Source: a virus
Strand: one strand, 5' to 3'
Virus record (IMG/VR): IMGVR_UViG_3300023179_003210
Span: 1 to 43,892 of that record
DNA: 43,892 nt
Shown here piece after piece: positions 10,462 to 37,413 of the stretch. Position 1 is the stretch's first letter, and each line of letters opens with the position of its first letter. Position numbers and translations under genes: made by a program. The notes under the pieces are model-generated. The model made no database searches. It was not told the DNA's origin and saw only the letters and a program-made list of their open reading frames with translations.

Positions 10462-10490
10462 TTGAAATGGCTCATAAGCTGTTGTAAATT
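10462..10490 (+). promoter_or_regulatory. Sigma70-like promoter abutting the first island gene
   Basis: TTGAAA, exactly 17 bases, TAAATT, then six bases (GTATAA) to the ATG at 10497. The start site about seven bases after the -10 would fall at or next to the start codon, so the mRNA would be leaderless. Confidence 0.6.
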
Positions 10491-10496
10491 GTATAA

Positions 10497-11324
10497 ATGT
10501 TAAACAAGTTCTCTAAAGACACTGCCCTTGTCATAATAACCTGTAATCGTCCTGATTTTTTTAAAAATCTCGTTGAGTCTGTTGATAGAACCGCTGTCGG
10601 TAAAATTTATGTGGTAAGTGCAGGCGATGCATATAAAGAATATCCTGCTGATGTAGAAGTTTTACAAGGAAAGCGTAAACTACCCGTAGGTATTGCTAAA
10701 AATATTGGTATGCGTAAAGCTCAACAAGACGGATACACCTATATCTTTGTAGCAGAAGATGATATTCTTATCAAAGATAATAAAGTTTTCGAGGAATATA
10801 TTCTAACCGCTGCTGATAGTGGTCTTTGGGCCGCACAACTTTCCTATGGTTTACATGGAGGAATCGGGGGAGGAAACGTTAATGATGATGGAACTCCTAA
10901 AAAACGAGCAACTGTAAAATACACTAATAAAGAAGTAGATATTTATCTATTCTCTTTCCAAGCATTTACCCTTATTCGTTCTGATATGTTAGGGGATGGT
11001 GCATATTTTGATGAACGTTTCTTAAATGCTGCGGAACATCTTGCCCAACATCAAAAGATTTTCTTAGGAGAAAAGGGTACGCCTCTTCTTTACCATGCAG
11101 ACGTTCTCAACTCATTCCTTTATATTACTGATCAAGATGCGAATCATGAAAAGTCGGTGATTCGAAATGATCCAGAATTTAAATCCAATTTCAGCTATTC
11201 ATGGCAACTCTTTAAAGAGCTTTTTGGGTATTATCCTCAAGATGCTCCACGATTTGCCCAAGAGGATGTTCTTAATATTCTTATTGATATTGAGTCCAGA
11301 TATGCTAATAAAGAACTATTATAA
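10497..11324 (+). CDS. GT2-like glycosyltransferase
   Basis: A 275-residue GT-A fold protein. The N-terminal strand ALVIITCNRPDFFKNLVESV is the nucleotide-sugar binding start of family 2 transferases, and FVAEDDILIKD (residues ~83-93) carries the acidic metal-binding motif. A later YFDERFLNAAEHL resembles the acceptor/catalytic loop. It is a paralogue of the gene at 12525: both share an '(F)V.EDD.LIK...F.EYI' block. First gene of the island, with its own promoter; its stop overlaps the next ATG (TAATG). Donor and acceptor unknown. Confidence 0.8.
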   Translation: MLNKFSKDTALVIITCNRPDFFKNLVESVDRTAVGKIYVVSAGDAYKEYPADVEVLQGKRKLPVGIAKNIGMRKAQQDGYTYIFVAEDDILIKDNKVFEEYILTAADSGLWAAQLSYGLHGGIGGGNVNDDGTPKKRATVKYTNKEVDIYLFSFQAFTLIRSDMLGDGAYFDERFLNAAEHLAQHQKIFLGEKGTPLLYHADVLNSFLYITDQDANHEKSVIRNDPEFKSNFSYSWQLFKELFGYYPQDAPRFAQEDVLNILIDIESRYANKELL

Positions 11325-12523
11325 TGACAACACGACACAGATTAATGGCAATAGCAGGCTCTCCAGATGTATCAGGGGATGGTGATTTTAAATCTTTTTT
11401 TGATTCATTTGATTTGAAATTATTTGATAGATGTTCAGATATTAAAACCGAAGAAAATATTCTTTTACATCGTGATTTGTTTCACTGTGAAGAAAATATA
11501 TACTACATTTTATATAAAAAACATCCTTCGACGTTTGATATAAAAATAAAAAAAGAATATCTTACAAAATTGGTAGAGTCTATTAGACAACAAGGATTAA
11601 CAATGATGTCATGTAGTAGTGATGCCCGCCACAAATTAACAGAAAATATATACTTTGTCAATAGGGAAAAGAATTTATTGATTCGAATTTATATAACATC
11701 TGAAAGAGAATATGAAGCAGATGCTGAAAAATTATTCACTGTATCTGTATTTTTTGATATTGCCGATACTCCAACTTACGAAATCGTTAAAAAATTAAAA
11801 GACGATTTCGCTCACATTCCCGATAATAATCATAATATCTATATGCTACAGAAAGATGCATATGGAGAAATGAGTTTACAGCCACATAGTATCAAAGGGT
11901 TTGAATTAGATATTAAAGAAAACTATGATGACTCTTTTGAAGAGGTTCATAACAAAATTCTTGAATGGGCTAAAGACTTTGATTTACCTAATAATCGTAT
12001 AACTTTATTACATGGTGATCCCGGCGCAGGTAAGACAAATTATATAAAACATATAATGAATGAACTGCCAAGTGTGCGAAAGATTTATATACCTCCCTTC
12101 TATGTATCTGCATTAAGTGATCCTGCATTTTTAGGATTTATTAGAGATTACAGTAACAGCCTTCTTATCATCGAAGATGCTGAAAACATCTTAGTATCAA
12201 GAGAACAAGATAGCGAGAACTCTGCAATGAGTATCATTCTTAACTTATCAGATGGTATAATGGGTTCTGTTCTTAATTTCAAGATCATTGCCACCTTTAA
12301 TACAGAAGAAAAGAATATTGATAGTGCATTAAAACGTCGAGGTCGTATGTTTATCAAACATCATTTTGGTAAATTATCCGAAGCAAAGACGAAAGCATTA
12401 TATCAAAAATTATATGGTAAAAACCCACCAGAAACACAAATGGTTTTAGCGGATATATACAATTCCGAAGACAATGGCAACAACGGTAAAAAAGAAAAAA
12501 GAGTGATGGGATTTATACATTAA
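11324..12523 (+). CDS. BCS1-like AAA+ ATPase
   Basis: A 399-residue protein with a C-terminal AAA+ module: Walker A HGDPGAGKTN (G231-T238 core), Walker B LLIIEDAEN (E284, D285), sensor 1-like KIIATFNTEE and an arginine-finger region ALKRRGRM. The N-terminal ~200 residues are mixed alpha/beta and unrecognised. The order and spacing resemble BCS1-type AAA proteins found in many T4-like phages, where the role is unknown. It is embedded between two glycosyltransferases with TAATG overlap, so it is probably co-expressed with them. Confidence 0.75.
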   Translation: MTTRHRLMAIAGSPDVSGDGDFKSFFDSFDLKLFDRCSDIKTEENILLHRDLFHCEENIYYILYKKHPSTFDIKIKKEYLTKLVESIRQQGLTMMSCSSDARHKLTENIYFVNREKNLLIRIYITSEREYEADAEKLFTVSVFFDIADTPTYEIVKKLKDDFAHIPDNNHNIYMLQKDAYGEMSLQPHSIKGFELDIKENYDDSFEEVHNKILEWAKDFDLPNNRITLLHGDPGAGKTNYIKHIMNELPSVRKIYIPPFYVSALSDPAFLGFIRDYSNSLLIIEDAENILVSREQDSENSAMSIILNLSDGIMGSVLNFKIIATFNTEEKNIDSALKRRGRMFIKHHFGKLSEAKTKALYQKLYGKNPPETQMVLADIYNSEDNGNNGKKEKRVMGFIH

Positions 12524-12524
12524 T

Positions 12525-13304
12525 ATGAAAAAAGGGCTTGTAATAACAACGTTTAACTCTCAAAGCTACTTTGAAGAATTATATAACACTATTCCTTTTG
12601 ATAGGATAGATCATGTGGTGGTGGTGAATGGGGGCGAACCCTATACCAAACAGTATGATAAAGTTCATTGGATTCAACATGATAGAGTACAGTTTGCATC
12701 CGTTGCTCGTAACGACGGGTTAAAGTATTTGATGAATAAAGGATGCGATTATTATTTTGTATGCGAAGATGATATGCTGATTAAGTCTGTTGATATATTT
12801 GATGAATATATAAAAGCATCAAAAGAATCAGGTATTCAGTATTTCGGATTCCGATCAAATGCATGGGGCGCTGGTGCGATTGGCGAGAGAACACCTAGAT
12901 TAGCTACTCAATATATTCAAGATGGCGCAATAATTCAACTCTATAAGAATACTTGTAACGAATTTACGTTCAGAACAAAATTAGCTATTGACGAAGTGGG
13001 TTTGTTCGACGAACGTTATCCATACATGTTTGATATTGATATGGTATATAGACTATCGGTAAAAAGTATGATACCGGGGTTCTGGTATTTCCCTGATATT
13101 TCTAATGCGGACGATCTGGTTATGAATAATCCTAATGCGGTTAGTAGAATGAATCCTAATGGTGAACGCAATAATAAGCTTGGTCCAGACTTTGAGAGAT
13201 TTAATAAAGATCATGGTTTAGAAGTAAATCGAATACCCGACAGTAGTAGGGAAGAAATAGTAGATAATATCAGATTCATCAGAAATAAATATGCAGCAAG
13301 ATAA
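12525..13304 (+). CDS. GT2-like glycosyltransferase (paralogue of the gene at 10497)
   Basis: A 259-residue GT-A protein. MKKGLVITTFNSQSYFEELY starts the nucleotide-binding fold; YYFVCEDDMLIKSVDIFDEYI (read in two parts, ~residues 78-98) holds the acidic motif; VGLFDERYPYMFDIDMVYRL is a typical GT2 'E/D-D' acceptor-binding segment. It overlaps the following ATP-grasp gene by 14 bases. Donor and acceptor unknown. Confidence 0.8.
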   Translation: MKKGLVITTFNSQSYFEELYNTIPFDRIDHVVVVNGGEPYTKQYDKVHWIQHDRVQFASVARNDGLKYLMNKGCDYYFVCEDDMLIKSVDIFDEYIKASKESGIQYFGFRSNAWGAGAIGERTPRLATQYIQDGAIIQLYKNTCNEFTFRTKLAIDEVGLFDERYPYMFDIDMVYRLSVKSMIPGFWYFPDISNADDLVMNNPNAVSRMNPNGERNNKLGPDFERFNKDHGLEVNRIPDSSREEIVDNIRFIRNKYAAR

Positions 13305-14067: not shown

Positions 14068-14975
14068 AATTACTTCTTGGAACAAACTTATTCGGTAATA
14101 ATAATCGCCAGCACATTGCACGGGAATCGTGGATGCATATTCAGAAAGCACAGCCTGATAAACTGGATTTAATAGCAATTCAATTCAAATCAGAATTTCA
14201 AAATGTTAAGGAGAAAATGTTAAACGATGAATTGGTAGAATATCAAGATTATAAGATTCCTGCTTTACATATTTTAGAAAATTCTTCAAAGAATATCGTT
14301 GAAGGTTCTAATAGAACCCTTCCATTATTCTATGATATTTTAGAAAAAATATTTATTCAAGCAGAATTTCATAAAGACCATGAAAATATAACACATTTTG
14401 GTTATATCAATAGCGACTGTATTATAACTGATACGTTAATAGAATACCTTGAAGATAAGAACCCTCATGCACTGGCTATATCTCGTTTAGAAATAGAAAA
14501 TACCACGGATATTCTTCGTCTCAAGAAAGAAGGTGCTAAAGTTCTTCGTAATGAAATAGCAGGCTACGATTGTTTCATCTTCTCTAAAGAATGGTTTACA
14601 GACAATCGACATCTTTTCAATGCGCCATACTTGATCGGAGTTCCCACTTTTGATGTGGTAACGGCAGGTATTATTAAATTAAATGGGGGAGAATTATATA
14701 ATGATAGTTCCAAGCCCCTTGTATGTCATATGATGCATGAAAATGTCTCACATGATAGTACCGTGGAAAAGGATTATAATGAAAATCTAATGAAATCAAA
14801 TAAATTTCATCATCTGGTTATGAACGTCATGTTTTATCATTTACAATATAATCTATGTCGAAGAACACCTTGGGGAGTATTTTTAACTCCAAAAGAAGGA
14901 GAGAATGACTTCACTGATAGGTTTTTTAACATAATGCGACTTGACACTGACAACCATATCAACTATATTGCCTGA
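14064..14975 (+). CDS. Putative GT-A type glycosyltransferase
   Basis: A 303-residue protein. HFGYINSDCIITDTLIEYL (~residues 112-130) has the position and shape of a GT-A metal-binding 'DxD-like' segment (NSD), and IAGYDCFIFSKEWF with PYLIGVPTFD resembles the 'acceptor' half of similar phage transferases. No close family named. Its operon position among transferases supports the role. The start overlaps the stop of the ATP-grasp gene. Confidence 0.5.
   Translation: MKLLLGTNLFGNNNRQHIARESWMHIQKAQPDKLDLIAIQFKSEFQNVKEKMLNDELVEYQDYKIPALHILENSSKNIVEGSNRTLPLFYDILEKIFIQAEFHKDHENITHFGYINSDCIITDTLIEYLEDKNPHALAISRLEIENTTDILRLKKEGAKVLRNEIAGYDCFIFSKEWFTDNRHLFNAPYLIGVPTFDVVTAGIIKLNGGELYNDSSKPLVCHMMHENVSHDSTVEKDYNENLMKSNKFHHLVMNVMFYHLQYNLCRRTPWGVFLTPKEGENDFTDRFFNIMRLDTDNHINYIA
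14941..14969 (+). promoter_or_regulatory. Consensus sigma70-type promoter abutting the gene at 14979
   Basis: TTGACA, exactly 17 bases, TATATT, then nine bases to the ATG at 14979. Close to the bacterial housekeeping consensus. It lies inside the end of the upstream glycosyltransferase gene. The predicted start site leaves a leader of only a few bases. Confidence 0.65.
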
Positions 14976-14978
14976 TAT

Positions 14979-15266
14979 ATGCCAAACGTATACACTATAC
15001 CCCAAGTTAATGACACACAAGGTACTGCTCTCACCCCTTATGGAGAAGGCATGGATAATATCCAGCATGCTACAGAACTTTATAAATTTTTGATATTAAC
15101 ACATTGTAAAGAGTTTTTGGATTCTAACTATGTGGGTATGAATTATACAGAGAGAGTTCGCTACGAAATAAACGCCAATTTAAATGCATTAACTATGGAT
15201 ACTCCATATATAGCAAGTATAAGTGGATTACGAGATATTACTGTGAGTTTAACGGATAGACGATGA
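14979..15266 (+). CDS. Hypothetical protein, 95 aa
   Basis: A 95-residue protein (MPNVYTIPQVNDTQGT...) with no recognised family. It has its own near-consensus promoter that ends nine bases before the ATG. Its stop overlaps the ATG of a truncated glycosyltransferase remnant (ATGA). Confidence 0.55.
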   Translation: MPNVYTIPQVNDTQGTALTPYGEGMDNIQHATELYKFLILTHCKEFLDSNYVGMNYTERVRYEINANLNALTMDTPYIASISGLRDITVSLTDRR

Positions 15267-15379
15267 AGATAGTTACCTTGTACAGTCCTAGTCACACACG
15301 GATGTATGAAGAATATTTTCTTCCATCATTTCCGAAAGATCGACGTTTGGAATTGAATACCCGCTACAATTTAGAATAA
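15263..15379 (+). pseudogene. Truncated N-terminal copy of a glycosyltransferase
   Basis: A 38-codon frame starting MKIVTLYSPSHTRMYEEYF and continuing LPSFPKDRRLEL. The downstream gene at 15388 starts with the same layout: MKI, then Y...SQTHR, then E..LPSFPQNEKMQM. The frame ends in TAA where the paralogue continues for another 190 residues. It is most simply the stump of a duplicated or recombined glycosyltransferase. A promoter for the intact gene lies in its last 30 bases. Confidence 0.6.
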
Positions 15380-15382
15380 TAT
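15353..15382 (+). promoter_or_regulatory. Promoter candidate before the gene at 15388
   Basis: TTGAAT, 18-base spacer, TAATAT, five bases, ATG at 15388. Same layout as the other start-abutting promoters, with one extra base in the spacer. Confidence 0.45.
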
Positions 15383-15387
15383 AATAT

Positions 15388-16065
15388 ATGAAAATCCAGT
15401 GCTATACTGTTGTTAGTCAAACCCATCGGAATCTCTTAGAAAGAGAAATGTTGCCATCCTTTCCTCAAAACGAAAAGATGCAAATGAACATACAATATAT
15501 TCCACAATTATGCCCTACTGGCTCCTTTTATGAAAAAGGATGGCATGATACAATGCATAAAAAAGTTGACTGTTTTATAGAAGGTATAAACAGATTACAG
15601 GATAATGAGCTATTCATGTTTATAGATGCGGATATAGTATTTTTTAAAGATTTTTATGATGATATATTAAAAGAATTAGAGGATAATGATATCATTTTTC
15701 AAAATGATATTGGGGGTGGATGTAATACAGGTTTTTTTGTTGCCCGAAAAAATGAAAATGTTTTATTATTAATAAATGCTGTTAAAAAATATTTAAATAA
15801 TTTCGATTCAGAGCAAGTTGCAATGACGGAATATTGCTTCAATAATAAAAAATATCAAGAGTTGCAAAATTTAAAATGGAAAATGTTACCTGTTGAAAAA
15901 TATTGGACATATGGGGTATATAGAAAAGTATGGGATGGACATGAGAATTTCGATATTCCCAATGACATTATAATGGTGCATGGTAATTGGTGCTTATATA
16001 AGCATAAAAATCTTTTACTGGACACTGTAAAAAATAAAGTTAACACCTATCTAAAATCTGCATAG
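15388..16065 (+). CDS. GT77-like nucleotide-sugar glycosyltransferase
   Basis: A 225-residue GT-A protein. The metal-binding motif MFIDADIVFFKDF is at ~residues 73-85 and is followed by GGGCNTGFFVARKN, the 'NTGFF' signature seen in nucleotide-diphospho-sugar transferases of the GT77/PF03407 type. A late VHGNWCLY resembles the metal-coordinating His near the C terminus. A truncated copy of its N terminus lies just upstream. The last 26 bases overlap, in antisense, the end of a LAGLIDADG endonuclease gene; a hairpin terminator follows 26 bases after the stop. Confidence 0.75.
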   Translation: MKIQCYTVVSQTHRNLLEREMLPSFPQNEKMQMNIQYIPQLCPTGSFYEKGWHDTMHKKVDCFIEGINRLQDNELFMFIDADIVFFKDFYDDILKELEDNDIIFQNDIGGGCNTGFFVARKNENVLLLINAVKKYLNNFDSEQVAMTEYCFNNKKYQELQNLKWKMLPVEKYWTYGVYRKVWDGHENFDIPNDIIMVHGNWCLYKHKNLLLDTVKNKVNTYLKSA

Positions 16066-16822
16066 CTTTATCATATTTTCTTGAAAGACCGAGTTCATAA
16101 ATTTTATTTGGCCAAATAAAATTTATGAACTTTTTTAATTCACTTTTTTTAAAGATACGTATCTGAGAATTATTACCAGTTTTTGTTTCATTTTGTTTAT
16201 AATGATATTCAATATTTAATAATGAATATAAGTCAAAAAGATAATTCCAGTTATGATTCATATGCCCGGTGATAATAAATTGTCTATTATTATTTGAATA
16301 ATACCAACAACCATCACCATCTATTAAACCTAAGAAAAAAAATCGTATTAAATCAATTGGAATATGAGATAAAATTTTATTAGCCGATGATAAACTTTTA
16401 ACATGATAATCAGTCTCTAATAAAAATTGTCCTAAGTTTGAATCATAACACCTAACAAGTGTATGAATATTATCTTTTCTATTTAATATGTTCCATTTAC
16501 CTGTATAGTTAAAAATATCAATAATATTGTCAATATCACTTTTATCACAATGAAACGCAATCTCATAACCCTTTTTAGATTTACTAACATATCCATCTGC
16601 AAACATATAACCTAGTAAATATACAGATTCTTTACAGAAATCCGTAGTAAATAAATGCGATTTAATATTATTGTTTCTCTCATATTTTAATTTTAATTTA
16701 TGAGCTTTATTGATAATTGAAATATAACTTTTGTTTAATATCGAGGCAGCATATTTCGGACCTAACTTGTTATAATTTATATGCAACCATTTTATATCCC
16801 CATCATTCCATTTTTTATTCAT
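16040..16822 (-). CDS. LAGLIDADG homing endonuclease with Myb-like DNA-binding N terminus
   Basis: 260 residues from the ATG at 16822 (the frame can be extended to a GTG at 16855). The N-terminal ~45 residues, KWNDGDIKWLHINYN...SIINKAHKLKL, form a SANT/Myb-like helix-turn-helix seen in phage endonucleases. Two LAGLIDADG helices follow: YLLGYMFADGYV and FFLGLIDGDGCW, with acidic catalytic residues (D) in both. I prefer the internal ATG because a late-type octamer GATAAATA ends five bases before it, exactly as in the second endonuclease. Free-standing, in antisense between two glycosyltransferase genes; a likely driver of gene mobility here. Confidence 0.85.
   Translation of the reverse strand: MNKKWNDGDIKWLHINYNKLGPKYAASILNKSYISIINKAHKLKLKYERNNNIKSHLFTTDFCKESVYLLGYMFADGYVSKSKKGYEIAFHCDKSDIDNIIDIFNYTGKWNILNRKDNIHTLVRCYDSNLGQFLLETDYHVKSLSSANKILSHIPIDLIRFFFLGLIDGDGCWYYSNNNRQFIITGHMNHNWNYLFDLYSLLNIEYHYKQNETKTGNNSQIRIFKKSELKKFINFIWPNKIYELGLSRKYDKAMQILDRC
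16092..16136 (+). terminator. 40-bp perfect palindrome plus T6: intrinsic terminator
   Basis: Two 20-base arms (16092-16111 and 16112-16131) are perfect complements with no spacer, centred on GGCC, followed by six T (16131-16136). On the plus strand this is a strong rho-independent terminator 26 bases after the stop of the gene at 15388. The same bases are the coding strand complement of the endonuclease C terminus (around IWPNKIYEL). Confidence 0.75.
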
Positions 16823-16827
16823 AATGG

Positions 16828-16835
16828 TATTTATC
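16828..16835 (-). promoter_or_regulatory. Late-type octamer GATAAATA before endonuclease start
   Basis: GATAAATA on the minus strand, five bases before the ATG at 16822. One base from the T4 late consensus TATAAATA. The second endonuclease has the identical octamer and spacing. Confidence 0.5.
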
Positions 16836-16865: not shown

Positions 16866-16877
16866 CTTAAATATATT

Positions 16878-17732
16878 ATGACATATGACTTTTCACTTTT
16901 AAGACCGGAACCGAGTTACCCGGTTTATCCTCCGTACCATCAAGGAAAATACCTTGAGGATTATTTCTTTGATTTCTATATTAAGAATAAAGAACAGTTC
17001 GATGTAAAGGGCCGAACACTTATACCTGTGTCATGGACTACTTTATATGTAGAGAACACGCCAATCAACATTCAGGAGTATTTGGATCAGTTAGACCCAA
17101 ATGGTGCCTATTTTACGGTGGTGCAGCATGATGAGGGGGTAAGACAGCGTTTACCCGCTAATACGCTTGTATTCGAGGCTGGAGGGCTAGGGAACGGTAT
17201 TCCTATACCATTAGTGTGTTCATCATTACCTAATGTACAGATAAATGATTATAGACCGACATTTTGTTCTTTTGTAGGTTCTTTAACGCACCCACTTAGA
17301 AAATCTCTATACAATATATATAGTGAACTTGGGTATGATTTTCCTACGTATAAATTTTCTATCCAACAGTGGACACAAGATGTGAGTGTTAATAAACTAG
17401 AAGAATTTATTGATATTACTAATCGTTCTATTTTTGCATTTGCGCCTAGAGGATACGGAGCAACTAGTTTTAGATTATATGAAATAATGCAATTAGGAGC
17501 AATTCCAATATATGTATCAGATAAACATTGGCTTCCTTGGCAAGATGAATTGAATTGGTCTGAATTCTGTGTTATAATTAAGCCAGATCAATTATATGAT
17601 GTCAATAGCATATTAATTAATATTGCTAATGATGGAGATAAGTTATCTCAGATGAGAAATAAAATTAAGGAAATATATGATGCCTATTTTTCATTAGAAG
17701 GCGTATGCACCCAAATACTTAAAAGACTATAA
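16878..17732 (+). CDS. Exostosin-like (GT47) glycosyltransferase
   Basis: A 284-residue GT-B-type protein. The C-terminal half carries the exostosin signature: IFAFAPRGYGATSFRLYEIMQ, then LGAIPIYVSDKHWLPW, the 'P.G....S.R..E....G.IPV...' pattern of GT47 proteins, where R and E contact the nucleotide sugar. The N-terminal half (YHQGKYLEDYFFDFYIK) is acceptor-side. Common in marine T4-like phages. Expressed from a late-type promoter just before its start. Confidence 0.8.
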   Translation: MTYDFSLLRPEPSYPVYPPYHQGKYLEDYFFDFYIKNKEQFDVKGRTLIPVSWTTLYVENTPINIQEYLDQLDPNGAYFTVVQHDEGVRQRLPANTLVFEAGGLGNGIPIPLVCSSLPNVQINDYRPTFCSFVGSLTHPLRKSLYNIYSELGYDFPTYKFSIQQWTQDVSVNKLEEFIDITNRSIFAFAPRGYGATSFRLYEIMQLGAIPIYVSDKHWLPWQDELNWSEFCVIIKPDQLYDVNSILINIANDGDKLSQMRNKIKEIYDAYFSLEGVCTQILKRL

Positions 17733-17734
17733 TT

Positions 17735-19797: not shown

Positions 19798-20675
19798 TGT
19801 CTATCTATTAATAATTCTAAACATTTATCATATTTCCGTTTTAGACCGAATTGAAATTTATTAGGATATAGATAATTATATAATTTAGTCAAGTTGGCTA
19901 GTCCTGACATAGTTAACACTGAACCTTTCCCGATTTTCGTAATTCTACGAGATATATAATACTTTATATCCAATTTGGATAGAATTTTTTCAAGATATGT
20001 CCAATCTTGATCATATGTTGACGCTACAATACATCTTCTAGTCCACCCCCCTTTATTTTTCTTAGTATTTTTACATAAATTAAAACATCCATCAGCATCT
20101 ATTAATCCCAATATAAAATAATTATGCAGATTAATAGGAATATTATTCAATATTTTATCAGCAGAGATTCCACTTTTTAAATGATAATCGTTCGCTTCTA
20201 AAAAGTTCACTAATAATCTATTAGATGTATGAATTCGTGTAAAAGGTTTTCGATTATAACCATCTTTCGAGTCAGGTATTTTTTCGTTAAAATTCCATTC
20301 ACCATGTAAATCAAAAATATGACGAATATGATTCATATCACTCGTTAATATATTAGTAATAACTCTATGCTCCACATGACCCTTTATATTATTATTAACT
20401 ATATGCCCATCACCCCATATAAATCCCAATAAATAAGCTGTTTCTGGTAGAATACACTCAATAAATTTATCAACATTCACTGCGAAATTTTGAGATTTCT
20501 TTAATCGGATTTTATATAAATTATTAATATCAAATTTAATATTTAATTGTTTTGCTTTAGCACATATACTTGATATTGAGCGTTTAGGTAATAACATATT
20601 ACATCCCTTTGCCCCTATACTAGTATAATTTTGTGTCAATGTTTCAAGTTCGTCTAATGTCCATTTATTTGCCAT
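19794..20675 (-). CDS. LAGLIDADG homing endonuclease, second copy
   Basis: 293 residues from the ATG at 20675 (the frame extends to 20732). N-terminal Myb-like helix-turn-helix KWTLDELETLTQNYT...SICAKAKQL, then LAGLIDADG helices YLLGFIWGDGHI and FILGLIDADGCF with both catalytic aspartates. The C terminus (YLYPNKFQFGLKRKYDKCLELL) closely parallels that of the first endonuclease (IWPNKIYELGLSRKYDKAMQIL), so the two are diverged paralogues. A GATAAATA octamer five bases upstream of this ATG supports the internal start. Free-standing, antisense, between two plus-strand genes. Confidence 0.85.
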   Translation of the reverse strand: MANKWTLDELETLTQNYTSIGAKGCNMLLPKRSISSICAKAKQLNIKFDINNLYKIRLKKSQNFAVNVDKFIECILPETAYLLGFIWGDGHIVNNNIKGHVEHRVITNILTSDMNHIRHIFDLHGEWNFNEKIPDSKDGYNRKPFTRIHTSNRLLVNFLEANDYHLKSGISADKILNNIPINLHNYFILGLIDADGCFNLCKNTKKNKGGWTRRCIVASTYDQDWTYLEKILSKLDIKYYISRRITKIGKGSVLTMSGLANLTKLYNYLYPNKFQFGLKRKYDKCLELLIDRH

Positions 20676-20680
20676 AAATA

Positions 20681-20688
20681 TATTTATC
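20681..20688 (-). promoter_or_regulatory. Late-type octamer GATAAATA before second endonuclease
   Basis: GATAAATA on the minus strand ending five bases before the ATG at 20675. Same octamer and spacing as at the other endonuclease gene. Confidence 0.5.
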
Positions 20689-20726
20689 CATGACAATGAT
20701 ATTTTCCAGTATATAGGTGATTTATG

Positions 20727-20755
20727 TTGCAATGGATATTATTTTGAAGTAACTT
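20727..20755 (+). promoter_or_regulatory. Promoter candidate before the gene at 20767
   Basis: TTGCAA, 17 bases, TAACTT, 11 bases, ATG at 20767. The -10 is weak, but spacing and position match the other start-abutting promoters and it follows the divergent endonuclease gene. Confidence 0.45.
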
Positions 20756-20766
20756 ATAGCAAAATT

Positions 20767-20991
20767 ATGGATACAGAATTAAATATAATAGATTTAAAAG
20801 AAGATGCACGGTATTTTATAGATAAATTTATAGAAGTAACCGAAAAATCAAATACTATAGAACATTTTAAACAAGCACAAAAATTTAGAGATAGATTGAA
20901 TACTATGGTAAATGCTTATTTTTTGAGCAAGATGCGTGATAATTTATCAGAAGATGACTTCATCCTCTTCTATACTCAAAATTTAATTTAA
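20767..20991 (+). CDS. Small helical hypothetical protein, 74 aa
   Basis: A 74-residue, helix-rich, charged protein (MDTELNIIDLKEDARYFIDK...). No family recognised. It heads the purine/fucose gene group after its own promoter and ends directly before the GMP reductase-like gene. Confidence 0.5.
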   Translation: MDTELNIIDLKEDARYFIDKFIEVTEKSNTIEHFKQAQKFRDRLNTMVNAYFLSKMRDNLSEDDFILFYTQNLI

Positions 20992-20997
20992 TTGAGA

Positions 20998-27015: not shown

Positions 27016-27044
27016 TTGAAATATCTATATGTAGTCTATTAATA
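27016..27044 (+). promoter_or_regulatory. Promoter abutting the gene at 27052
   Basis: TTGAAA, exactly 17 bases, TTAATA, seven bases, ATG at 27052. An inverted repeat TAATA-GTA-TATTA (27040-27052) covers the -10 and reaches the A of the start codon. Confidence 0.6.
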
Positions 27045-27051
27045 GTATATT

Positions 27052-27237
27052 ATGGCAATGACAACAACTGGCGTATTTGGCGCTTCTTCCTTTCACGATC
27101 CTCTTCGCGGACCCGCACCCACACAAACTCCTCCCGAACCCACAAATGCTGATATTCTCCGTGAGAATATTGAAAAATTTATTAAGGGTGAAATTACTGC
27201 GGCTCAATTAGAAGTTATTAAGAAATCCCTTAGTTAA
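27052..27237 (+). CDS. Small proline-rich hypothetical protein, 61 aa
   Basis: A 61-residue protein: a Thr/Pro-rich N-terminal half (RGPAPTQTPPEPTNAD) and a helical C-terminal half (ILRENIEKFIKGEITAAQLE). An ATG six bases later (27058) is a possible alternative start; the upstream promoter spacing favours 27052. Monocistronic by appearance, with a new promoter right after it. Confidence 0.55.
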   Translation: MAMTTTGVFGASSFHDPLRGPAPTQTPPEPTNADILRENIEKFIKGEITAAQLEVIKKSLS

Positions 27238-27240: not shown

Positions 27241-27269
27241 TTGACCATTATCGCATCATATGTTATAGT
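27241..27269 (+). promoter_or_regulatory. Promoter abutting the nucleotidyltransferase gene
   Basis: TTGACC, exactly 17 bases, TATAGT, eight bases, ATG at 27278. A TGT extended -10 precedes it. The dyad ATAGTAT-G-ATACTAT (27265-27279) spans the -10 and start codon. Confidence 0.65.
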
Positions 27270-27277
27270 ATGATACT

Positions 27278-28288
27278 ATGGGAGGAAAACTTTTACAATC
27301 TGTCTGGAATTTACCAGAAAAACGACTATCGAATGACGAGTATTTGTCATTCAAATCTGCCGTTTCTGATAAATTATCCAAAATCTTTCCTAAGAGTGTT
27401 AGGATTGACTCTGCTCCCGCTATCCGTAGTAAGGAATCCCATGGGGATTTAGATATTATCTGCGGAGTTGATCATTATTTCAATTCAAAACAATTGATTG
27501 AAGATGCTTTTGGTGTAAAAGTTCATGCCAATTCCAATGTTTTATCATTTCCGGTGGATGGATTTCAAGTGGATATTACGTTTGTACCGATTGACGAATT
27601 TCAATCATCTATAGACTATACAAGTTGGGGGGATGCTTCTAACTTAGTTGGTAGAATCGCACATAAATTTGGTTTACATCATGGACATGTGGGATTGTCA
27701 TTTTGGATTCGTCAAGGTTTATTTGATAAATCATTAATGTTTCTTGATAATGATCATGTGATGGAAAAATTGATCCTTACTAGAGATTTTTCAATCATTC
27801 TGCCCCTGTTGGGATTCGATTATGACCGTTGGAAACAAGGTTTTGATACGAATGAAGAAGTATATCATTGGGTTGCATCTTCTAAGTATTTCAATGCTGA
27901 AATTTTCGACTATGAAAGCTTGAACCATATCAACAGAGTTCGTAATAAAAAGCGAGCAATGTATGCAGGTTTTATTGAATGGTTGGAACAAAACAGTTGG
28001 AAGTATAATAGATACGTTTTTCAACGTAGAGAATACTATCTTCCGATGTGGGCTATGCAATTCCCTAACTTAAAACCGTCAATTGAACACCATAAGTTAG
28101 AATATGAACAGAATAAAAAGTTCAAAAGCAAACTTAATGGTGAATTGGTAATGGAATTATTAGGTATTTCCAATGGAAAGGAAGTCGGACATGTTATATC
28201 TGAAATGAAGAGAATGTTTAGTAAAGAAAAATATATCAGTATGCCTCAAGAATTAATCAATAAATTAATTTTAAGCTTTAAACAATGA
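27278..28288 (+). CDS. Pol beta-type nucleotidyltransferase
   Basis: A 336-residue protein with a polymerase-beta-fold active site: SKESHGDLDIICG (about residues 50-62, GD.D metal ligands) and a third acidic residue in FQVDITFVPI (~90-99). The C terminus, LGISNGKEVGHVISEMKRMF, resembles the helical tail of CCA-adding/poly(A) polymerase enzymes ('G..iG.il..l'). It could modify RNA ends, a protein or a small molecule. Start at 27278 set by the promoter; an ATG at 27270 overlaps the transcription start. Overlaps the next gene by four bases. Confidence 0.65.
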   Translation: MGGKLLQSVWNLPEKRLSNDEYLSFKSAVSDKLSKIFPKSVRIDSAPAIRSKESHGDLDIICGVDHYFNSKQLIEDAFGVKVHANSNVLSFPVDGFQVDITFVPIDEFQSSIDYTSWGDASNLVGRIAHKFGLHHGHVGLSFWIRQGLFDKSLMFLDNDHVMEKLILTRDFSIILPLLGFDYDRWKQGFDTNEEVYHWVASSKYFNAEIFDYESLNHINRVRNKKRAMYAGFIEWLEQNSWKYNRYVFQRREYYLPMWAMQFPNLKPSIEHHKLEYEQNKKFKSKLNGELVMELLGISNGKEVGHVISEMKRMFSKEKYISMPQELINKLILSFKQ

Positions 28289-30657: not shown

Positions 30658-30686
30658 TTGATAATGAAAAGAAGCCATGTTAAATA
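30658..30686 (+). promoter_or_regulatory. Promoter with -10 in hairpin, before the gene at 30695
   Basis: TTGATA, exactly 17 bases, TAAATA with an extended TGT, then eight bases to the ATG at 30695. The spacer forms the left arm of a 17-bp hairpin and the -10 enters its loop. Confidence 0.55.
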
Positions 30687-30705
30687 TTTTTAACATGGCT
30701 TCTTT
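30668..30705 (+). promoter_or_regulatory. 17-bp hairpin covering the start codon of the gene at 30695
   Basis: Perfect 17-base arms (30668-30684 and 30689-30705) with a four-base loop. The right arm contains ATGGCT, the start of the glycosyltransferase. A read-through mRNA from thioredoxin would fold the start away; an mRNA from the promoter at 30658 starts past the left arm and leaves it open. It may also act as a terminator (the right arm ends in TTT). Confidence 0.6.
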
Positions 30706-32046: not shown

Positions 32047-32075
32047 TTGACATACTTTGAGAAGACATGTAATAT
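32047..32075 (+). promoter_or_regulatory. Consensus promoter overlapping a start-codon hairpin
   Basis: TTGACA, exactly 17 bases, TAATAT, five bases, ATG at 32081. The -10 sits in the loop of the hairpin at 32058-32091, the same design as at 30658. Confidence 0.65.
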
Positions 32076-32091
32076 GCCACATGTCTTCTCA
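32058..32091 (+). promoter_or_regulatory. 13-bp hairpin covering the start codon of the gene at 32081
   Basis: Perfect 13-base arms (32058-32070 and 32079-32091), eight-base loop. The right arm contains the ATG and first codons. Read-through mRNA would mask the start. Confidence 0.6.
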
Positions 32092-32497: not shown

Positions 32498-32526
32498 TTG
32501 AACAAACCCCAAAAACATGTTAAGAT
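32498..32526 (+). promoter_or_regulatory. Promoter abutting the gene at 32537
   Basis: TTGAAC, exactly 17 bases, TAAGAT with extended TGT, ten bases, ATG at 32537. The dyad ATAGT-AATC-ACTAT (32525-32538) lies between -10 and the start codon, as at 27265. Confidence 0.6.
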
Positions 32527-32536
32527 AGTAATCACT

Positions 32537-32947
32537 ATGAGCACAGAAAATACAGAAGTCGATGTAAAGGAACAGGAAAATAAAATCGAGAAAAAATTTG
32601 CGATTACGATTAAAAAATTAATCGCAGTTGTCGATGGATCAGAAAATCTCAAACTTCCAAAGAAAGTTAAGAAGGATGACCTTGCTTCTATCGTTACAGA
32701 TTTGTTTAAAGAAGAACATGCTGAAAACATCAAACAGACAAAAGATTCCCTTAAGTCTCTTTTGAAACAATATGCAGAAATGAATAAAGCTTTCGATGAC
32801 AAGGAAAAGGAACTTGAAAAGCTTAGAAAACAGAAAAAAGAAGAATTTATTAAAGCAGCCGATGGCTTGTTTAATAAAATTGATAATATCTCCGTAATGG
32901 AGAAAGAATACTATCAAGGACTGAAAGTAGCTACCGAAACAGTTTAA
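32537..32947 (+). CDS. Lysine/glutamate-rich coiled-coil protein
   Basis: 136 residues from ATG 32537 (MSTENTEVDVKEQE). Highly charged, helical, with heptad-like stretches in the second half (FDDKEKELEKLRKQKKEEFI). No enzyme motif. A single-gene unit with its own promoter and a strong terminator directly after it, so it is likely expressed at high level; perhaps a structural or DNA-associated small protein. Confidence 0.6.
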   Translation: MSTENTEVDVKEQENKIEKKFAITIKKLIAVVDGSENLKLPKKVKKDDLASIVTDLFKEEHAENIKQTKDSLKSLLKQYAEMNKAFDDKEKELEKLRKQKKEEFIKAADGLFNKIDNISVMEKEYYQGLKVATETV

Positions 32948-32988: not shown

Positions 32989-33000
32989 CGTTTAAATAGG

Positions 33001-33029
33001 TTGCATATACCCTCATTTGAGGTTAAGTT
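33001..33029 (+). promoter_or_regulatory. Promoter abutting DNA polymerase gene 43
   Basis: TTGCAT, exactly 17 bases, TAAGTT, six bases, ATG at 33036. It lies just after the terminator at 32957. Confidence 0.5.
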
Positions 33030-33035
33030 ATTATA

Positions 33036-35624
33036 ATGTCTTACCGTAATGTTTACTATGACCAAAAGAAGTCCCAAATTCACCATTTCACATGGACAGA
33101 AGACGGCTCTCCTTGTAGAGTTATAAAGAATTATAAACCATATATAATGGTACCTGCCACGGTATCATCAAAGGTTGATGGATATGGTATTGATAATGCT
33201 CCGCTGATGAAGCGAGAGTTTGATAACAACTATGATCGTGCCAAGTATGTTAAAAATTCTAATGGGAAGATTTACTATAATCTTCCCCCTACGCAGCAAT
33301 ATCTACTAGACCTGTATTATAAAAAAGATATTGCTGAATTAACTCGACATCCGTTACGAACTTTCTTTTTCGATATCGAAGTTATTGCTAACGAATTTCC
33401 CGATCCAATGGAAGCGAAATTTCCAATCACTTCAATTACTATATATGATACAAATCTGAAAAAGTATTTTACATGGGGCATTGGTAAATACGATGATTAC
33501 TCTTGTAAAGATCATTTAGTTGGAATTGAACCCGAAGAAATCGTTTATGAGTATTGTGCAGGGGAAACACAACTTTTAAAGAAATTTATCAGATTTTGGC
33601 GTGCAAATTTTCCTGATGTTATCGTTGGATATAACTCATATAGCTTCGATGTTCCTTACATTGTTAATCGTCTAGAAACGGTATTGGGTGAAGGATATAG
33701 TAAAAACCTGTCACCTGTCAATAGTATATATAGTAAATCTGTTCAGAATAGATATGGTCAGGAATATATCGAATATGAATTTGGCGGTATTGCCCATATG
33801 GATTATATGGTTCTTTATAGATATTTCACTCCCGGTGAACGGGAAAGCGATTCCCTTGATTTTGTATGTTATTCTGAATTAGGAAGTGGTAAATTGGATT
33901 ACGGCGATACCTCCCTCCAAGAGCTTGCGAAACAGGATTGGAATAAGTTTATTAACTATAACATTTGGGATGTTAAGTTGATGATTATGTTGGACGAAGA
34001 GAAGAAATATTTAGAAATCGCCAAGTTCTCTGCATTTAGCGGATTCTGTAATTTAGATAAAGCATTTGGTAAAACTGCAATCATTACAGGTGTATTAGCA
34101 AAACAATCCTTAGAAGATGGAAAATATATTTCCACACAGAAAGGTGTGGAGCATGCAGAGAAAATACCGGGAGGATATGTCAAGGCTCCCGAAGAAGGAT
34201 TGTATGAAGATGTGGTTAGCTTCGATGCTAACTCCCTCTATCCGAGTAATATTATCACTTTAAATATTTCTCCTGAAACCAAAGTTGCCAAAATCCTCGA
34301 TAAGGATGCAGAAAAATACACGCTCTTACTTTGTAAAGAGAATAAGAAAATGACCGTGGCAAAGGATAGATTTTATGAATTCCTTCGCTTGAAAAATTGG
34401 TCATTTGCGGCTAACGGGGTAATGTATGATCAATCTGTTAAAGGTATTGCTGCTAGTTTCTGTGATACTCTTTATCAGAAAAGAAAAAAGGTTAAAGAGG
34501 AAATGTTTCTAATTGATCAACAATTAGAAACCATGGAAGAGGGAACGGCAGAATATAAGAGATTGAAAACGCTTTCTTCACAGAAGGATGTTGAACAATA
34601 TCTTTATAAGATTTTGTTGAATTCTACTTACGGTGCTTTTGCCAATAGATTCTTTGCTCTATATGAGTTGGATGTGGCAACCTCTGTAACAACCACAGGG
34701 CAAGCCATGATTAAAAAGAGTGCGCAAATTATTAATGACTACATTGCTTCTGAATGGGGTATTGATAAAAAAGATAGAGTCGTATTTTCCGATACCGATT
34801 CTGTAGGTGTTACTATTAAGGATATTGTCGAAAAACACAATCTTGTAATTTTTGACGAAGACAAGAACCTTACCAAAGAGTTTAATATTATTGAGAATAA
34901 AATCTCTGATCATCTTAATTCTGAGATTAATAAATGGTCTAAAGAGAAATTAAACTCTGCTGATTCTCGTTTCTTCTTTAAGAGAGAAAGTGTTTGCCCA
35001 AAAGCTATGTGGATGGGTAAGAAACATTACGTAATGTATATTCTAAACAAAGAAGGCAAGAAGATGAATAAGTTTAAATATTCAGGAGTTCGTCTTGCCA
35101 AGTCTACTTTATCTGATAAAGCAAAGGATATTTCTAAGAAGATTGTAGAGATTATCATGGGTACTAAAGATCAAAAGATAGCAGATCAAATGATCTTTGA
35201 TGCATATGAAGAATTTAAGGCGTTCGGAGTTAATGATATTGCAGAACGAGGGGGTATAAAAGTACTGAATAAATGGGACACTAAAAATAACGGGTTAGTA
35301 TGTGCAAAAGGCACAACTCGTTCTGCAAAACTTAGCATCTTTCACAACGAATTATTAAAAATGAATAATCTTGAAAATGTCTATAGAAAAATAGAAAATG
35401 GATCAAAGATAAAGATGTTACACATTAAGGATAATAAATATAACCTTGAAGGTATTGCATACCAAGATAAGTTGCCAGCGGAATTTGGAGTAGAACCTGA
35501 TTATGAGAAAATGTTTTTCTATGATATCATAAAAAGCTTACAACCCGTATATGATGCTCTTACATGGAAGATGCCCAACCCTAAATTACAATATGAAACA
35601 ACGCTTGAAGAATTATTTGGTTAA
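33036..35624 (+). CDS. 43: Family B DNA polymerase gp43
   Basis: An 862-residue polymerase (T4: 898). Exonuclease motif I FFFDIEVI (D113, E115), Exo II YNSYSFDVPYI, polymerase motif A SFDANSLYPSN (D397), motif B KILLNSTYGAF and motif C VVFSDTDSVG (D586, D588). All catalytic residues are present, so both replication and proofreading should be active. The C terminus (NPKLQYETTLEELFG) has the shape of a clamp-binding peptide. Gene 35593 starts within its last bases. Confidence 0.96.
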   Translation: MSYRNVYYDQKKSQIHHFTWTEDGSPCRVIKNYKPYIMVPATVSSKVDGYGIDNAPLMKREFDNNYDRAKYVKNSNGKIYYNLPPTQQYLLDLYYKKDIAELTRHPLRTFFFDIEVIANEFPDPMEAKFPITSITIYDTNLKKYFTWGIGKYDDYSCKDHLVGIEPEEIVYEYCAGETQLLKKFIRFWRANFPDVIVGYNSYSFDVPYIVNRLETVLGEGYSKNLSPVNSIYSKSVQNRYGQEYIEYEFGGIAHMDYMVLYRYFTPGERESDSLDFVCYSELGSGKLDYGDTSLQELAKQDWNKFINYNIWDVKLMIMLDEEKKYLEIAKFSAFSGFCNLDKAFGKTAIITGVLAKQSLEDGKYISTQKGVEHAEKIPGGYVKAPEEGLYEDVVSFDANSLYPSNIITLNISPETKVAKILDKDAEKYTLLLCKENKKMTVAKDRFYEFLRLKNWSFAANGVMYDQSVKGIAASFCDTLYQKRKKVKEEMFLIDQQLETMEEGTAEYKRLKTLSSQKDVEQYLYKILLNSTYGAFANRFFALYELDVATSVTTTGQAMIKKSAQIINDYIASEWGIDKKDRVVFSDTDSVGVTIKDIVEKHNLVIFDEDKNLTKEFNIIENKISDHLNSEINKWSKEKLNSADSRFFFKRESVCPKAMWMGKKHYVMYILNKEGKKMNKFKYSGVRLAKSTLSDKAKDISKKIVEIIMGTKDQKIADQMIFDAYEEFKAFGVNDIAERGGIKVLNKWDTKNNGLVCAKGTTRSAKLSIFHNELLKMNNLENVYRKIENGSKIKMLHIKDNKYNLEGIAYQDKLPAEFGVEPDYEKMFFYDIIKSLQPVYDALTWKMPNPKLQYETTLEELFG

Positions 35625-35880: not shown

Positions 35881-35883
35881 TAC

Positions 35884-35912
35884 TTGAAACATATTCACCT
35901 ACAGGATTAATA
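35884..35912 (+). promoter_or_regulatory. Promoter abutting the gene at 35918
   Basis: TTGAAA, exactly 17 bases, TTAATA, five bases, ATG at 35918. Identical -35 and -10 to the promoter at 27016. Confidence 0.6.
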
Positions 35913-35917
35913 CTAAC

Positions 35918-36325
35918 ATGGAACAAATCGTAGGAATTTACAAAGACATTAGCCAATTTATCATCGGTATTTTGGTTAAAGAAACAGATACACATGTGGT
36001 ATTACGCCGAGCATTATTGGTTAGTGTAGAAAGAGATAAAAATGGTAACGGACTAGTCCCTAACTTTTTCCCTGTAACACTATTAACACTTGACCCACCT
36101 TTCCATATGATGGGATTCTTGAAAGAACAAAATATTGATTTTGAAACTTGGTACAAAAAAGACACGCTCTTGAATCCAGTTCCTCAAGAACTTAACGATC
36201 AAGTTACCCAAGTATATATGCAAAACTTTATAGGAGTGCTACCTCCTAATGCATCAGCCCCTCTACCTGTAGAGGGTAAATCAGAGAGTAAATCACCTGA
36301 AAATAACATAGTCAAACTATTCTAA
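35918..36325 (+). CDS. Hypothetical protein, 135 aa
   Basis: A 135-residue protein. The first ~80 residues (IVGIYKDISQFIIGILVKETDTHVVLRRALLV, read in parts) look like a small beta-barrel, of the LSm/SH3 kind; the tail is Pro/Ser-rich and disordered with a terminal NNIVKLF. A single-gene unit between a promoter and a strong terminator. Possibly an RNA-binding or regulatory factor, but that is only suggested by the predicted fold. Confidence 0.6.
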   Translation: MEQIVGIYKDISQFIIGILVKETDTHVVLRRALLVSVERDKNGNGLVPNFFPVTLLTLDPPFHMMGFLKEQNIDFETWYKKDTLLNPVPQELNDQVTQVYMQNFIGVLPPNASAPLPVEGKSESKSPENNIVKLF

Positions 36326-36351
36326 AAAAAGGCGGCGAAAGCCGCCTTTTT
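36326..36351 (+). terminator. Strong intrinsic terminator with GAAA tetraloop
   Basis: AAAAAGGCGGC and GCCGCCTTTTT pair (11 bp) around a GAAA loop, directly after the stop at 36325. It isolates the upstream gene from the uvsX unit. Confidence 0.92.
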
Positions 36352-36353
36352 AG

Positions 36354-36382
36354 TTGTTATACACTGCGTTATAGAGTAAATT
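36354..36382 (+). promoter_or_regulatory. Promoter abutting uvsX
   Basis: TTGTTA, exactly 17 bases, TAAATT, five bases, ATG at 36388. It begins three bases after the terminator. Confidence 0.55.
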
Positions 36383-36387
36383 TATAC

Positions 36388-37413
36388 ATGTCGAAATTAC
36401 TCGAAAAGTTAAGAAAAAATACCATTGTTGATGCTCAATTATTAAAAAATAGCAAATATTTTGATGAAGGAAAATTCATCGCGACCCGTGTTCCATTGCT
36501 CAATCTAGCCCTGTCAGGAAAGATTCGTGGAGGGGGTCTTCCTAAAGGAATCGTACAGATTGCCGCTCCACCTAAACATTTCAAAACTAACTTCATGTTA
36601 GAATTGATGTTAGGTTTCCAAAATGATCCAGATAATGCGAATCAAGACTATATCATCGTTCTATATGATAGTGAATTAGGATCAACTCCTAGCTATTATG
36701 AGAAAATGGGGCTTGATACTAGTAAGATTGATCATCGTCCTATTAAGTCGGTTGAAGAACTTCGTTCAGATATTGCAAATCTTTTAAATGATATATCAGA
36801 AGGTGACAGAGTTCTAATTTGCGTTGACTCCATCGGTATGCTTCGCTCTAACAAGGAAACAGAAGATGCTAAATCCGGTCATGATGCTGCTGATATGACA
36901 AGAGCAAAGGCTTTGAATTCCTTGTTCCGAATCATTACTGCTGAATCTGCTATTAAGCAAATTCCGATTGTTATTATTAATCACTCATATGGAACCCTAG
37001 AAATGTTCTCTAAGGAAGTTGCCAGCGGTGGTCGTAAGACACAATATGCTGCTCATACCCTTCTATTCATTACAAAGGCACAGGATAAGGAGAAAGAAGA
37101 CGGTAAAGACGTTCTTAAGGGATTCCGATTCACGCTACGTGCGGGCTTATCGAGATATGTTAAGGAAAATGCTACATTCCCTATTACAGTGCATTTTGGT
37201 GAAGGAGTTGATCCTTTTTCAGGATTGTTTGACTTGGCCTTAGACTTGGGTTACATTATCCCACAGAAACAAGGCTGGTACAAGATGAAAGATTGGACAG
37301 AAGATAAAAAACAAGTTAGACGGGCAGACCTTGAAGAAGATGAAGACGTAATGAATGCGCTTCTAGATGATGACTCTTTCTGTGCAGCCGTAGAAAAAAT
37401 ATACAGTTTATAA
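36388..37413 (+). CDS. uvsX: UvsX, RecA-like recombinase
   Basis: A 341-residue RecA/UvsX-family recombinase (T4 UvsX: 391). The N-terminal start LLEKLRKNTIVDAQLLKNSK, then Walker A APPKHFKTN (K66, T67; T4 has GPSKSFKSN), Walker B VLICVDSIGML, and a DNA-binding L2-type loop after IVIINHSYG. It drives strand invasion in recombination-dependent replication with UvsY and gp32. First gene of a unit that also carries gp41. Confidence 0.92.
   Translation: MSKLLEKLRKNTIVDAQLLKNSKYFDEGKFIATRVPLLNLALSGKIRGGGLPKGIVQIAAPPKHFKTNFMLELMLGFQNDPDNANQDYIIVLYDSELGSTPSYYEKMGLDTSKIDHRPIKSVEELRSDIANLLNDISEGDRVLICVDSIGMLRSNKETEDAKSGHDAADMTRAKALNSLFRIITAESAIKQIPIVIINHSYGTLEMFSKEVASGGRKTQYAAHTLLFITKAQDKEKEDGKDVLKGFRFTLRAGLSRYVKENATFPITVHFGEGVDPFSGLFDLALDLGYIIPQKQGWYKMKDWTEDKKQVRRADLEEDEDVMNALLDDDSFCAAVEKIYSL

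Follow-up and report, generated by a model that had tools for sequence, protein, structure and literature searches.

Single phage genes can be expressed without a leader (PMC9031893), and in some bacteria leaderless expression is a sizeable minority mode (PMC12340547, PMC3160421). In Deinococcus, a −10 motif located 6–7 bp before the ORF has been linked to leaderless mRNA (PMC12340547), and in Deinococcus-Thermus (PMC12340547) as in TA-led genes found in Actinobacteria and other groups (PMC3160421), a −10 box at ~6–7 bp goes with predicted or linked leaderless mRNA and with the lack of a Shine-Dalgarno (SD) sequence at those genes. These are cellular genomes in which the type is a minority one (~20–40% of genes) and many other genes carry SD sequences. 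The mRNA of lambda cI also begins at its AUG (PMC9031893). Late promoters of phage T4, which depend on gp55/gp33/gp45, have a TATAAATA-like box without a −35 element at late genes (PMC2988020), mostly 20–29 nt before the ATG. In the cultured T4-like Pelagibacter phage HTVC008M, TAAATA lies exactly 5 nt before ~10 late-gene starts, most of which agree with the GenBank annotation and which include tail and baseplate genes. The genes concerned include those at record positions 6280, 7562, 11972, 18943, 19456, 31132 and 49760, and at 16007 and 18916 on the minus strand.

We analyzed a viral DNA stretch of 43,892 nucleotides (the window; IMG/VR record IMGVR_UViG_3300023179_003210) together with 12 related contigs, hereafter the clade. 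The sequences argue that in this T4-like phage and its relatives gene expression very probably relies in the main on promoters of a sigma70 and a gp55 class that adjoin the start codon, with messages predicted to be leaderless or nearly so. Unlike the cellular cases, this is a lytic phage lineage in which most transcription-unit heads are predicted to be leaderless, two sigma systems are involved and no SD signal is present; what concerns a single gene in lambda is here predicted genome-wide. A lytic dsDNA phage lineage that is mainly leaderless in both sigma classes and without SD sequences was not found in the literature searched.

Probable promoters next to start codons in the window

The eleven sites with a 17-base spacer and the one with an 18-base spacer listed in the first-pass annotation were all recovered at their positions, with 5–11 nt between the −10 box and the ATG. 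The site at 10462..10499 (+), TTGAAA (10462)-N17-TAAATT (10485–10490) with a gap of 6 to ATG 10497 of a glycosyltransferase-like gene, was the top matrix match of the window (17.8 bits, with a matrix trained on other genes). Downstream of it lie 14941..14981 (+) (TTGACA-N17-TATATT at 14964–14969, gap 9, ATG 14979), the 18-base-spacer site 15353..15390 (+) (TTGAAT-N18-TAGAAT at 15377–15382, gap 5, ATG 15388) and 20727..20769 (+) (TTGCAA-N17-TAACTT at 20750–20755, gap 11, ATG 20767). At 27016..27054 (+), TTGAAA-N17-TTAATA (27039–27044) precedes ATG 27052 with a gap of 7, and the orthologue in the diverged relative L004 retains TTGATA-N17-TAAATA with a gap of 9. The site at 27241..27280 (+) (TTGACC-N17-TANNNT at 27264–27269, gap 8, ATG 27278) leads a gene matching phrog_24943 ‘DNA polymerase’ and has a short inverted repeat around its −10 box.

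A second glycosyltransferase-like gene starts at ATG 30695 behind 30658..30697 (+) (TTGATA-N17-TAAATA at 30681–30686, gap 8); an alternative in-frame ATG exists at 30677, but comparison of orthologues favors 30695, and the layout is preserved in orthologues at 54–70% identity. Two further sites are 32047..32083 (+) (TTGACA-N17-TANNNT at 32070–32075, gap 5, ATG 32081) and 32498..32539 (+) (TTGAAC-N17-TANNNT at 32521–32526, gap 10, ATG 32537). The family B DNA polymerase gene (gp43) is preceded by 33001..33038 (+) (TTGCAT-N17-TAAGTT at 33024–33029, gap 6, ATG 33036), and most of its orthologues (54–59% identical) have TTGCAA and a TATAGT/TATATT-type −10 box at most ~9 nt from the ATG. The layout at 35884..35920 (+) (TTGAAA-N17-TTAATA at 35907–35912, gap 5, ATG 35918) is preserved in orthologues as low as 25% identity, and that of uvsX at 36354..36390 (+) (TTGTTA-N17-TAAATT at 36377–36382, gap 5, ATG 36388) corresponds in relatives to TTGAAA-N17-TATATT near the ATG. 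A hairpin resembling a terminator, with a T run, lies directly 5′ of the uvsX promoter. On the reverse strand, TTGAAT...TATNNT with a gap of 5 occupies 5255..5292 (−), before the ATG at 5257.

A loosely defined pattern whose −10 variants were selected post hoc might reflect no more than chance matches picked by eye in an AT-rich genome. The pattern TTG-N17-(TANNNT/TAAATA/TTAATA), 5–11 nt before the ATG, occurred at 11 of 52 forward gene starts, whereas shuffling the 60 nt upstream of these starts with dinucleotide content preserved yielded 0.31 hits on average and never more than 4 (Poisson p 4.8e-14), and adjacent 7-nt gap bins held 0, 0, 1, 3, 0 and so on. Elsewhere in the window, 43 forward and 35 reverse occurrences were counted against ~30 ± 4 expected per strand; this total is slightly above chance, so the signal is the placement before the ATG. 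A held-out matrix, for which the copies of four genes in relatives were the sole training set, gave 10 window matches at gaps of 0–9 versus 0.43 expected. With a textbook matrix in agreement and the layout conserved in orthologues of only 25–70% identity, the excess that the first-pass annotation had anticipated is borne out, and coincidence is refuted for practical purposes.

Two promoter classes across the clade

The clade is made up of T4-like viruses whose hosts are uncultured bacteria, mostly from fresh water. Megablast found no cultured close relative, and the best DNA polymerase match was 30%. A genome scan with a UvsX alignment returned four loci, 39–44% identical, in MAGs of unrelated taxa; two of them (L151 and L153) showed some SD sequences. 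No tRNA genes were found in the scanned contigs, and a multisubunit RNA polymerase (Rpb2 domain) was absent from the window.

For the clade, gaps were counted from explicit hexamers and start codons were assigned by ORF rules (ATG only), a subset being confirmed by orthology; the contigs share ancestry, and cross-contig counts are thus not fully independent. A −10 box with its first T ~10–12 bp before the start codon exceeded chance. A textbook sigma70 matrix, built independently of these data, gave 53 clade matches in the 5–9-nt bin versus ~8 in each other bin, and no near-ATG peak in T4, HTVC008M, Milchi or S-RIM2. Unbiased hexamer counts placed TAAATA (gaps 5 and 6) and TTGAAA (gap 28) among the leading motifs of the clade, while the same counts in T4 and Melnitz returned SD words; the near-ATG pattern was absent from T4, Milchi and S-RIM2.

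Two classes were distinguished, a sigma70-like one with a TTG box and a larger TAAATA class resembling the T4 late promoter. TAAATA stood at gaps 5 and 6 before 88 and 68 starts, respectively, versus ~4.5 expected. The TAAATA core was present at 213 ORFs, with TTG at a spacer of 16–18 in 71 of these; most lacked a −35 element. The fused layout is genome-wide, as first proposed, but it is a trait of a whole lineage rather than of one phage, and its restriction to an early/middle class did not hold. The original site list, although every entry is real, had also overlooked boxes of the larger class: in the window, late-type TAAATA occurs at 4342..4355 (+) (box 4342–4347, gap 5, ATG 4353), 16820..16833 (−) (gap 5, ATG at 16822), its divergent partner 16868..16880 (+) (box 16868–16873, gap 4, ATG 16878), 20673..20686 (−) (gap 5, ATG at 20675; divergent from 20767) and 39174..39187 (+) (box 39174–39179, gap 5, ATG 39185), and a TAAGTA box at 6433..6446 (−) precedes the ATG at 6435 of a terminase-type gene with a gap of 5.

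The window encodes a late sigma factor (gp55) at 8529..9275 (+), matching phrog_234 ‘late sigma transcription factor’ (E 3.6e-13), and gp55 homologues are also present in relatives; against PDB sequences the candidate gave only chance-level matches. This gp55 is presumed to read the TAAATA boxes. gp45 was detected by profile in one of nine records, which are fragments. PHROG matches of ten box-led genes included terminase and baseplate hub/lysozyme, several genes having no match. Here, as in T4, the box is TATAAATA-like, a gp55 homologue is encoded and boxes precede structural and packaging genes. Unlike those of T4, the boxes lie 5–6 nt before the ATG without an SD sequence. HTVC008M, which shares the 5-nt spacing, differs from the clade in being mixed, with SD sequences at other genes, boxes 18–21 nt upstream and no sigma70 peak near the ATG. 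In our proposed scheme, early and middle genes would use host sigma70-type promoters (TTGaaa-N17-TATNNT), and late genes a TAAATA box recognized by RNA polymerase carrying the phage gp55. The −7 box of Bacteroidetes is TAnnTTTG; promoters of this type were rejected, as the trained matrix and the site lists gave TATNNT or TAAATA without TTTG.

Such promoters could be real while most transcription came from others farther upstream, so that typical mRNAs would be leadered. A few strong matrix matches do lie farther upstream, e.g., for 42165 at 36 nt, and some fall 20–100 nt upstream; compact genomes also necessarily have read-through from upstream genes. However, no matrix revealed a second positional peak at 12–100 nt in the clade, whereas T4 late boxes peak at 20–29 nt, and at several genes read-through RNA would conceal the AUG in a hairpin. 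We consider predominantly leadered transcription improbable.

Transcription start and the missing Shine-Dalgarno sequence

The T4 late box spans −13 to −6 (PMC2988020); since it ends at −6, a 5-nt gap sets +1 on the A of the ATG. At gap-5 late starts of the clade, base −1 was a pyrimidine in 85% versus 53% elsewhere (p 1e-9), while at gap-6 sigma70 sites it was A in 12 of 16. The initiator thus tracks the box and not the ATG, and the pyrimidine bias is an independent sign of initiation at the ATG. With the −10 box mostly ending 4–9 nt before the ATG (mode 5–6), RNA would start from the A of the AUG or carry a leader of ~1–5 nt; gaps of 7–11 nt imply leaders of a few nucleotides, and hence not all messages would be strictly leaderless. 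Also counting against the general reading, ~29% of divergent heads had no recognized box near the ATG.

SD-like words were found at 6% of 702 clade starts, equal to the 6% control, versus 42% in T4 and 43% in HTVC008M. The absence noted at the listed promoters is therefore correct and is genome-wide, not peculiar to fused promoters. A phage-encoded ribosomal protein S21 was considered as the cause of the loss and rejected, being absent in 13 of 13 records.

This genome-wide absence would also fit a reading in which the AT-rich box is no promoter, but an A/U-rich, Kozak-like translation-initiation signal as in Bacteroidetes without SD sequences; Flavobacterium relies on upstream sequence in place of SD (PMC6847099). 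Such a signal should mark internal genes equally, yet a box preceded 71% of divergent heads and 81% of the genes whose upstream gap is 11–40 nt, compared with 23% of tightly packed genes and 3–9% at the control position (p 1e-27 and 6e-35). Some boxes, moreover, have a TTG exactly 16–17 nt upstream, the box is T4-late-like in phages encoding gp55, and the −1 pyrimidine follows the box. We regard a purely translational role as quite unlikely.

On the preferred promoter reading, mRNA 5′ ends would fall at or next to the AUG, and messages with neither 5′ UTR nor SD would be translated by leaderless initiation, with ribosomes recognizing the 5′-terminal AUG. Operon-internal genes have neither box nor SD sequence and frequently overlap the preceding gene; they are probably translated by coupling.

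Hairpins over promoters and predicted leaderless expression

Promoter hairpins were found at 12 of 318 sites, at two window genes (30695 and 32081) and in a minority of relatives. At 30668..30705 (+), a 17-bp inverted repeat with a 4-nt loop has the −10 box in its 5′ arm and the ATG in its 3′ arm; the folding energy of the read-through RNA is −27.2 kcal/mol (z −8.7), and RNA beginning at the ATG is unable to form the hairpin. At 32058..32091 (+), a 13-bp inverted repeat encloses the −10 box, with the ATG in the 3′ arm (−20.4 kcal/mol, z −5.8). The weaker repeat at 27278 folded no better than shuffles in the window copy and has different letters in the relative G001. Hairpin loop lengths at 30695 vary among orthologues.

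In this minority of genes, the hairpin would bury the ATG in read-through RNA only, and RNA from the local promoter would leave the AUG open. The arrangement is like that of T4 genes e, soc and 49 (PMC3014915), where a read-through hairpin hides the start codon, with the promoter in the 5′ arm documented for e; those hairpins hide the SD sequence and/or the AUG, whereas here the hairpin can mask the AUG alone, and RNA from the local promoter is predicted to be leaderless. The repeats at 30695 and 32081 might instead be repressor operators or terminators of the upstream genes, as they are palindromes across the promoter and a short T run comes after one of them. But the arm letters differ while pairing is kept (window, G001, G004, G006 and G002), unlike a common operator, and the AT-rich stems reach into coding sequence; for the hairpins, we take the operator or terminator reading seriously but rate it as rather unlikely.

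Pelagimyophages are a group for which late-promoter prediction has been reported as unsuccessful (PMC7029224). The layout described here may explain the failure of promoter finders that seek intergenic, leadered promoters in such phages. For uncultured phages it offers a rule by which start codons and transcription units can be placed, and it would point to hosts with efficient leaderless translation. A broader proposal, which we hold tentatively and as slightly on the doubtful side, is that a whole lytic lineage has dropped leaders and SD sequences, with all units starting at the AUG through sigma70 and gp55, internal genes coupled and hairpins silencing read-through. If true, leaderlessness itself would be a device favoring phage mRNAs or setting timing.

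Near-ATG promoters in a T4-like phage record

The 43.9-kb record (33% GC) comes from a T4-like phage and encodes a late sigma factor gp55 (8529; phrog_234, E 3.6e-13), a gp47-like nuclease of the SbcD type (9284), an IMPDH/GMP-reductase-family gene (20998), the family B DNA polymerase gp43 (33036), UvsX (36388), a DnaB-type helicase (37818), an ssDNA-binding protein (40622) and a terminase-type gene (5275–6435, minus). The N-terminal part of the latter, which resembles a terminase large subunit, includes a GIY-YIG (SegE-type) domain, a fusion also present in the related contig L128 (840–1994, minus). The long stretch 10497–27015 contains glycosyltransferase genes and sugar genes, among them GT47 exostosin-like and Nucleotid_trans types. 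Sequence searches found no near relative among cultured phages; single proteins were 52–100% identical to those of the window in IMG/VR relatives.

The first-pass annotation had listed eleven TTG-N17 promoter sites, and one with an 18-nt spacer (15388), 5–11 nt before ATG; all were present, confirming the observation of near-ATG promoters. Of 52 forward starts, 11 were preceded, at a gap of 5–11 nt, by TTG-N17-(TANNNT, TAAATA or TTAATA), and the excess over shuffled sequence was clear: dinucleotide-preserving shuffles of each 60-nt upstream stretch gave a mean of 0.31 matches (maximum 4). The remaining gap bins up to 151 nt held 0–3 matches each. To guard against hindsight, we used one matrix built solely from four genes as they occur in relatives, and an unfitted textbook sigma70 matrix. 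The former gave 10 window matches at gaps 0–9 (0.43 expected), including untrained genes such as 10497 and 27052, and also scored 14979 and 20767, slightly outside that bin; the latter gave the same near-ATG peak across the clade. In the divergent pairs 16822–16878 (55 nt apart) and 20675–20767 (91 nt), both opposing promoters adjoin their start codons.

The promoter adjoining ATG was kept at 30695, 33036 (gp43), 35918 and 36388 (uvsX) in orthologues with 25–70% identical proteins, while the surrounding letters differed. Farther aquatic phages (38–45% identity in one protein) showed the same tendency.

Two promoter classes and the predicted RNA start

Clade counts covered the window and 12 related contigs, excluding a near-duplicate of the window. 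In an unbiased count, the top positional hexamers were TAAATA at gaps 5 (88 starts) and 6 (68; about 4.5 expected), with TTGAAA at gap 28 also among them. TTG stood at spacer 16–18 in 71 of the 213 ORFs with TAAATA at gaps 4–9, and at spacer 16–17 in 26 of 37 TATATT boxes. These TTG frequencies and hexamer counts indicate two classes, one sigma70-type, found at gp43, uvsX and further replication/recombination genes, and one of TAAATA boxes resembling T4 late promoters, whose box spans -13 to -6 and requires no -35 (PMC2988020). When ten proteins encoded behind TAAATA boxes were compared with PHROG profiles, they included a terminase and a baseplate hub/lysozyme type, while several had no match. 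The proposed early/middle class fused to the start codon, with its predicted (nearly) leaderless expression, appears right in essence but was too narrow in scope, since the late-type class is also present.

As the T4 late box ends at -6 (PMC2988020), the modal gap of 5 would place +1 at the A of ATG. At gap-5 late starts, base -1 was C/T in 85% and G in 1%, versus 53% and 12% at box-less starts (p 1e-9). Gap-5 sigma70 sites had C/T there in 88%, and gap-6 sigma70 sites had A in 12 of 16. This initiator signature in the sequence tracks box distance, not ATG, as expected if RNA started 6 nt after the box. Separately, where TAAATA lay 5 or 6 nt before a clade start, G was nearly missing at base +5 (codon 2, second base; 1–3% vs 16%), and C was enriched at this base of predicted leaderless starts.

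Promoter or translation signal

Boxes at gaps 4–11 preceded 88 of 124 divergent heads (first genes of transcription units) and 122 of 150 genes whose upstream gap was 11–40 nt. They preceded 94 of 403 genes lying ≤10 nt from the preceding gene, and at a control position they occurred at 3–9% of starts. A translation signal would not be expected to favour heads as these boxes do, making that explanation of the near-ATG box very improbable.

The reported absence of Shine-Dalgarno sequences at the listed promoters held throughout the clade, where such words preceded 6% of 702 starts, equal to the control stretch (6%); the figures for T4 and HTVC008M, a cultured T4-like Pelagibacter phage, were 42% and 43%. 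Internal genes must thus also start without Shine-Dalgarno, and as many overlap the preceding gene by 1 or 4 nt, they are likely translated by coupling.

Hairpins and comparison with known systems

Some promoters sit inside inverted repeats, the 3' arm of which spans or adjoins ATG. Strong stems of this kind were present at 12 of 318 starts with a promoter, versus 9 of 1045 other starts (p 8e-4) and 0.7% of shuffles. Read-through RNAs at 30695 and 32081 have predicted folds of -27.2 kcal/mol (z -8.7) and -20.4 kcal/mol (z -5.8), and neither stem can form in RNA starting at ATG. Hairpins recur at the 30695 gene in four relatives (G001, G004, G006 and G002), with differing arm sequences in the last three. 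Strong inverted repeats also surround near-ATG promoters at G003:79821 (minus, 12 bp) and G004:17220 (minus, 14 bp). In T4, the starts of genes e, soc and 49 are hidden in RNA structure, and late promoters of gene e lie within the 5' arm of the hairpin (PMC3014915). The hairpins at 30695 and 32081, known here from sequence and predicted folds, resemble these, and start-hiding of this kind is the best reading of the clade hairpins, one we hold with slightly better than even confidence.

No near-ATG promoter peak was found in T4, Pseudomonas phage Milchi or S-RIM2; T4 late boxes lie mostly 20–29 nt before ATG, whereas the modal clade gap is 5. Shine-Dalgarno words were the top positional motif in Melnitz, whose study looked for the T4 late motif and, in the portion available, makes no leaderless claim (PMC9004378). 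Late-promoter prediction in pelagimyophages was reported as unsuccessful (PMC7029224). HTVC008M (KC465899.1) has TAAATA exactly 5 nt ahead of about 10 starts, most GenBank-annotated, a layout on which the literature searched held no statement; unlike the clade, it has Shine-Dalgarno at its remaining genes, a mixed predicted leaderless/leadered late programme. By sequence, the clade's near-ATG promoters would work like the leaderless ones of Deinococcus-Thermus (PMC12340547), combined with a T4-type two-sigma programme.
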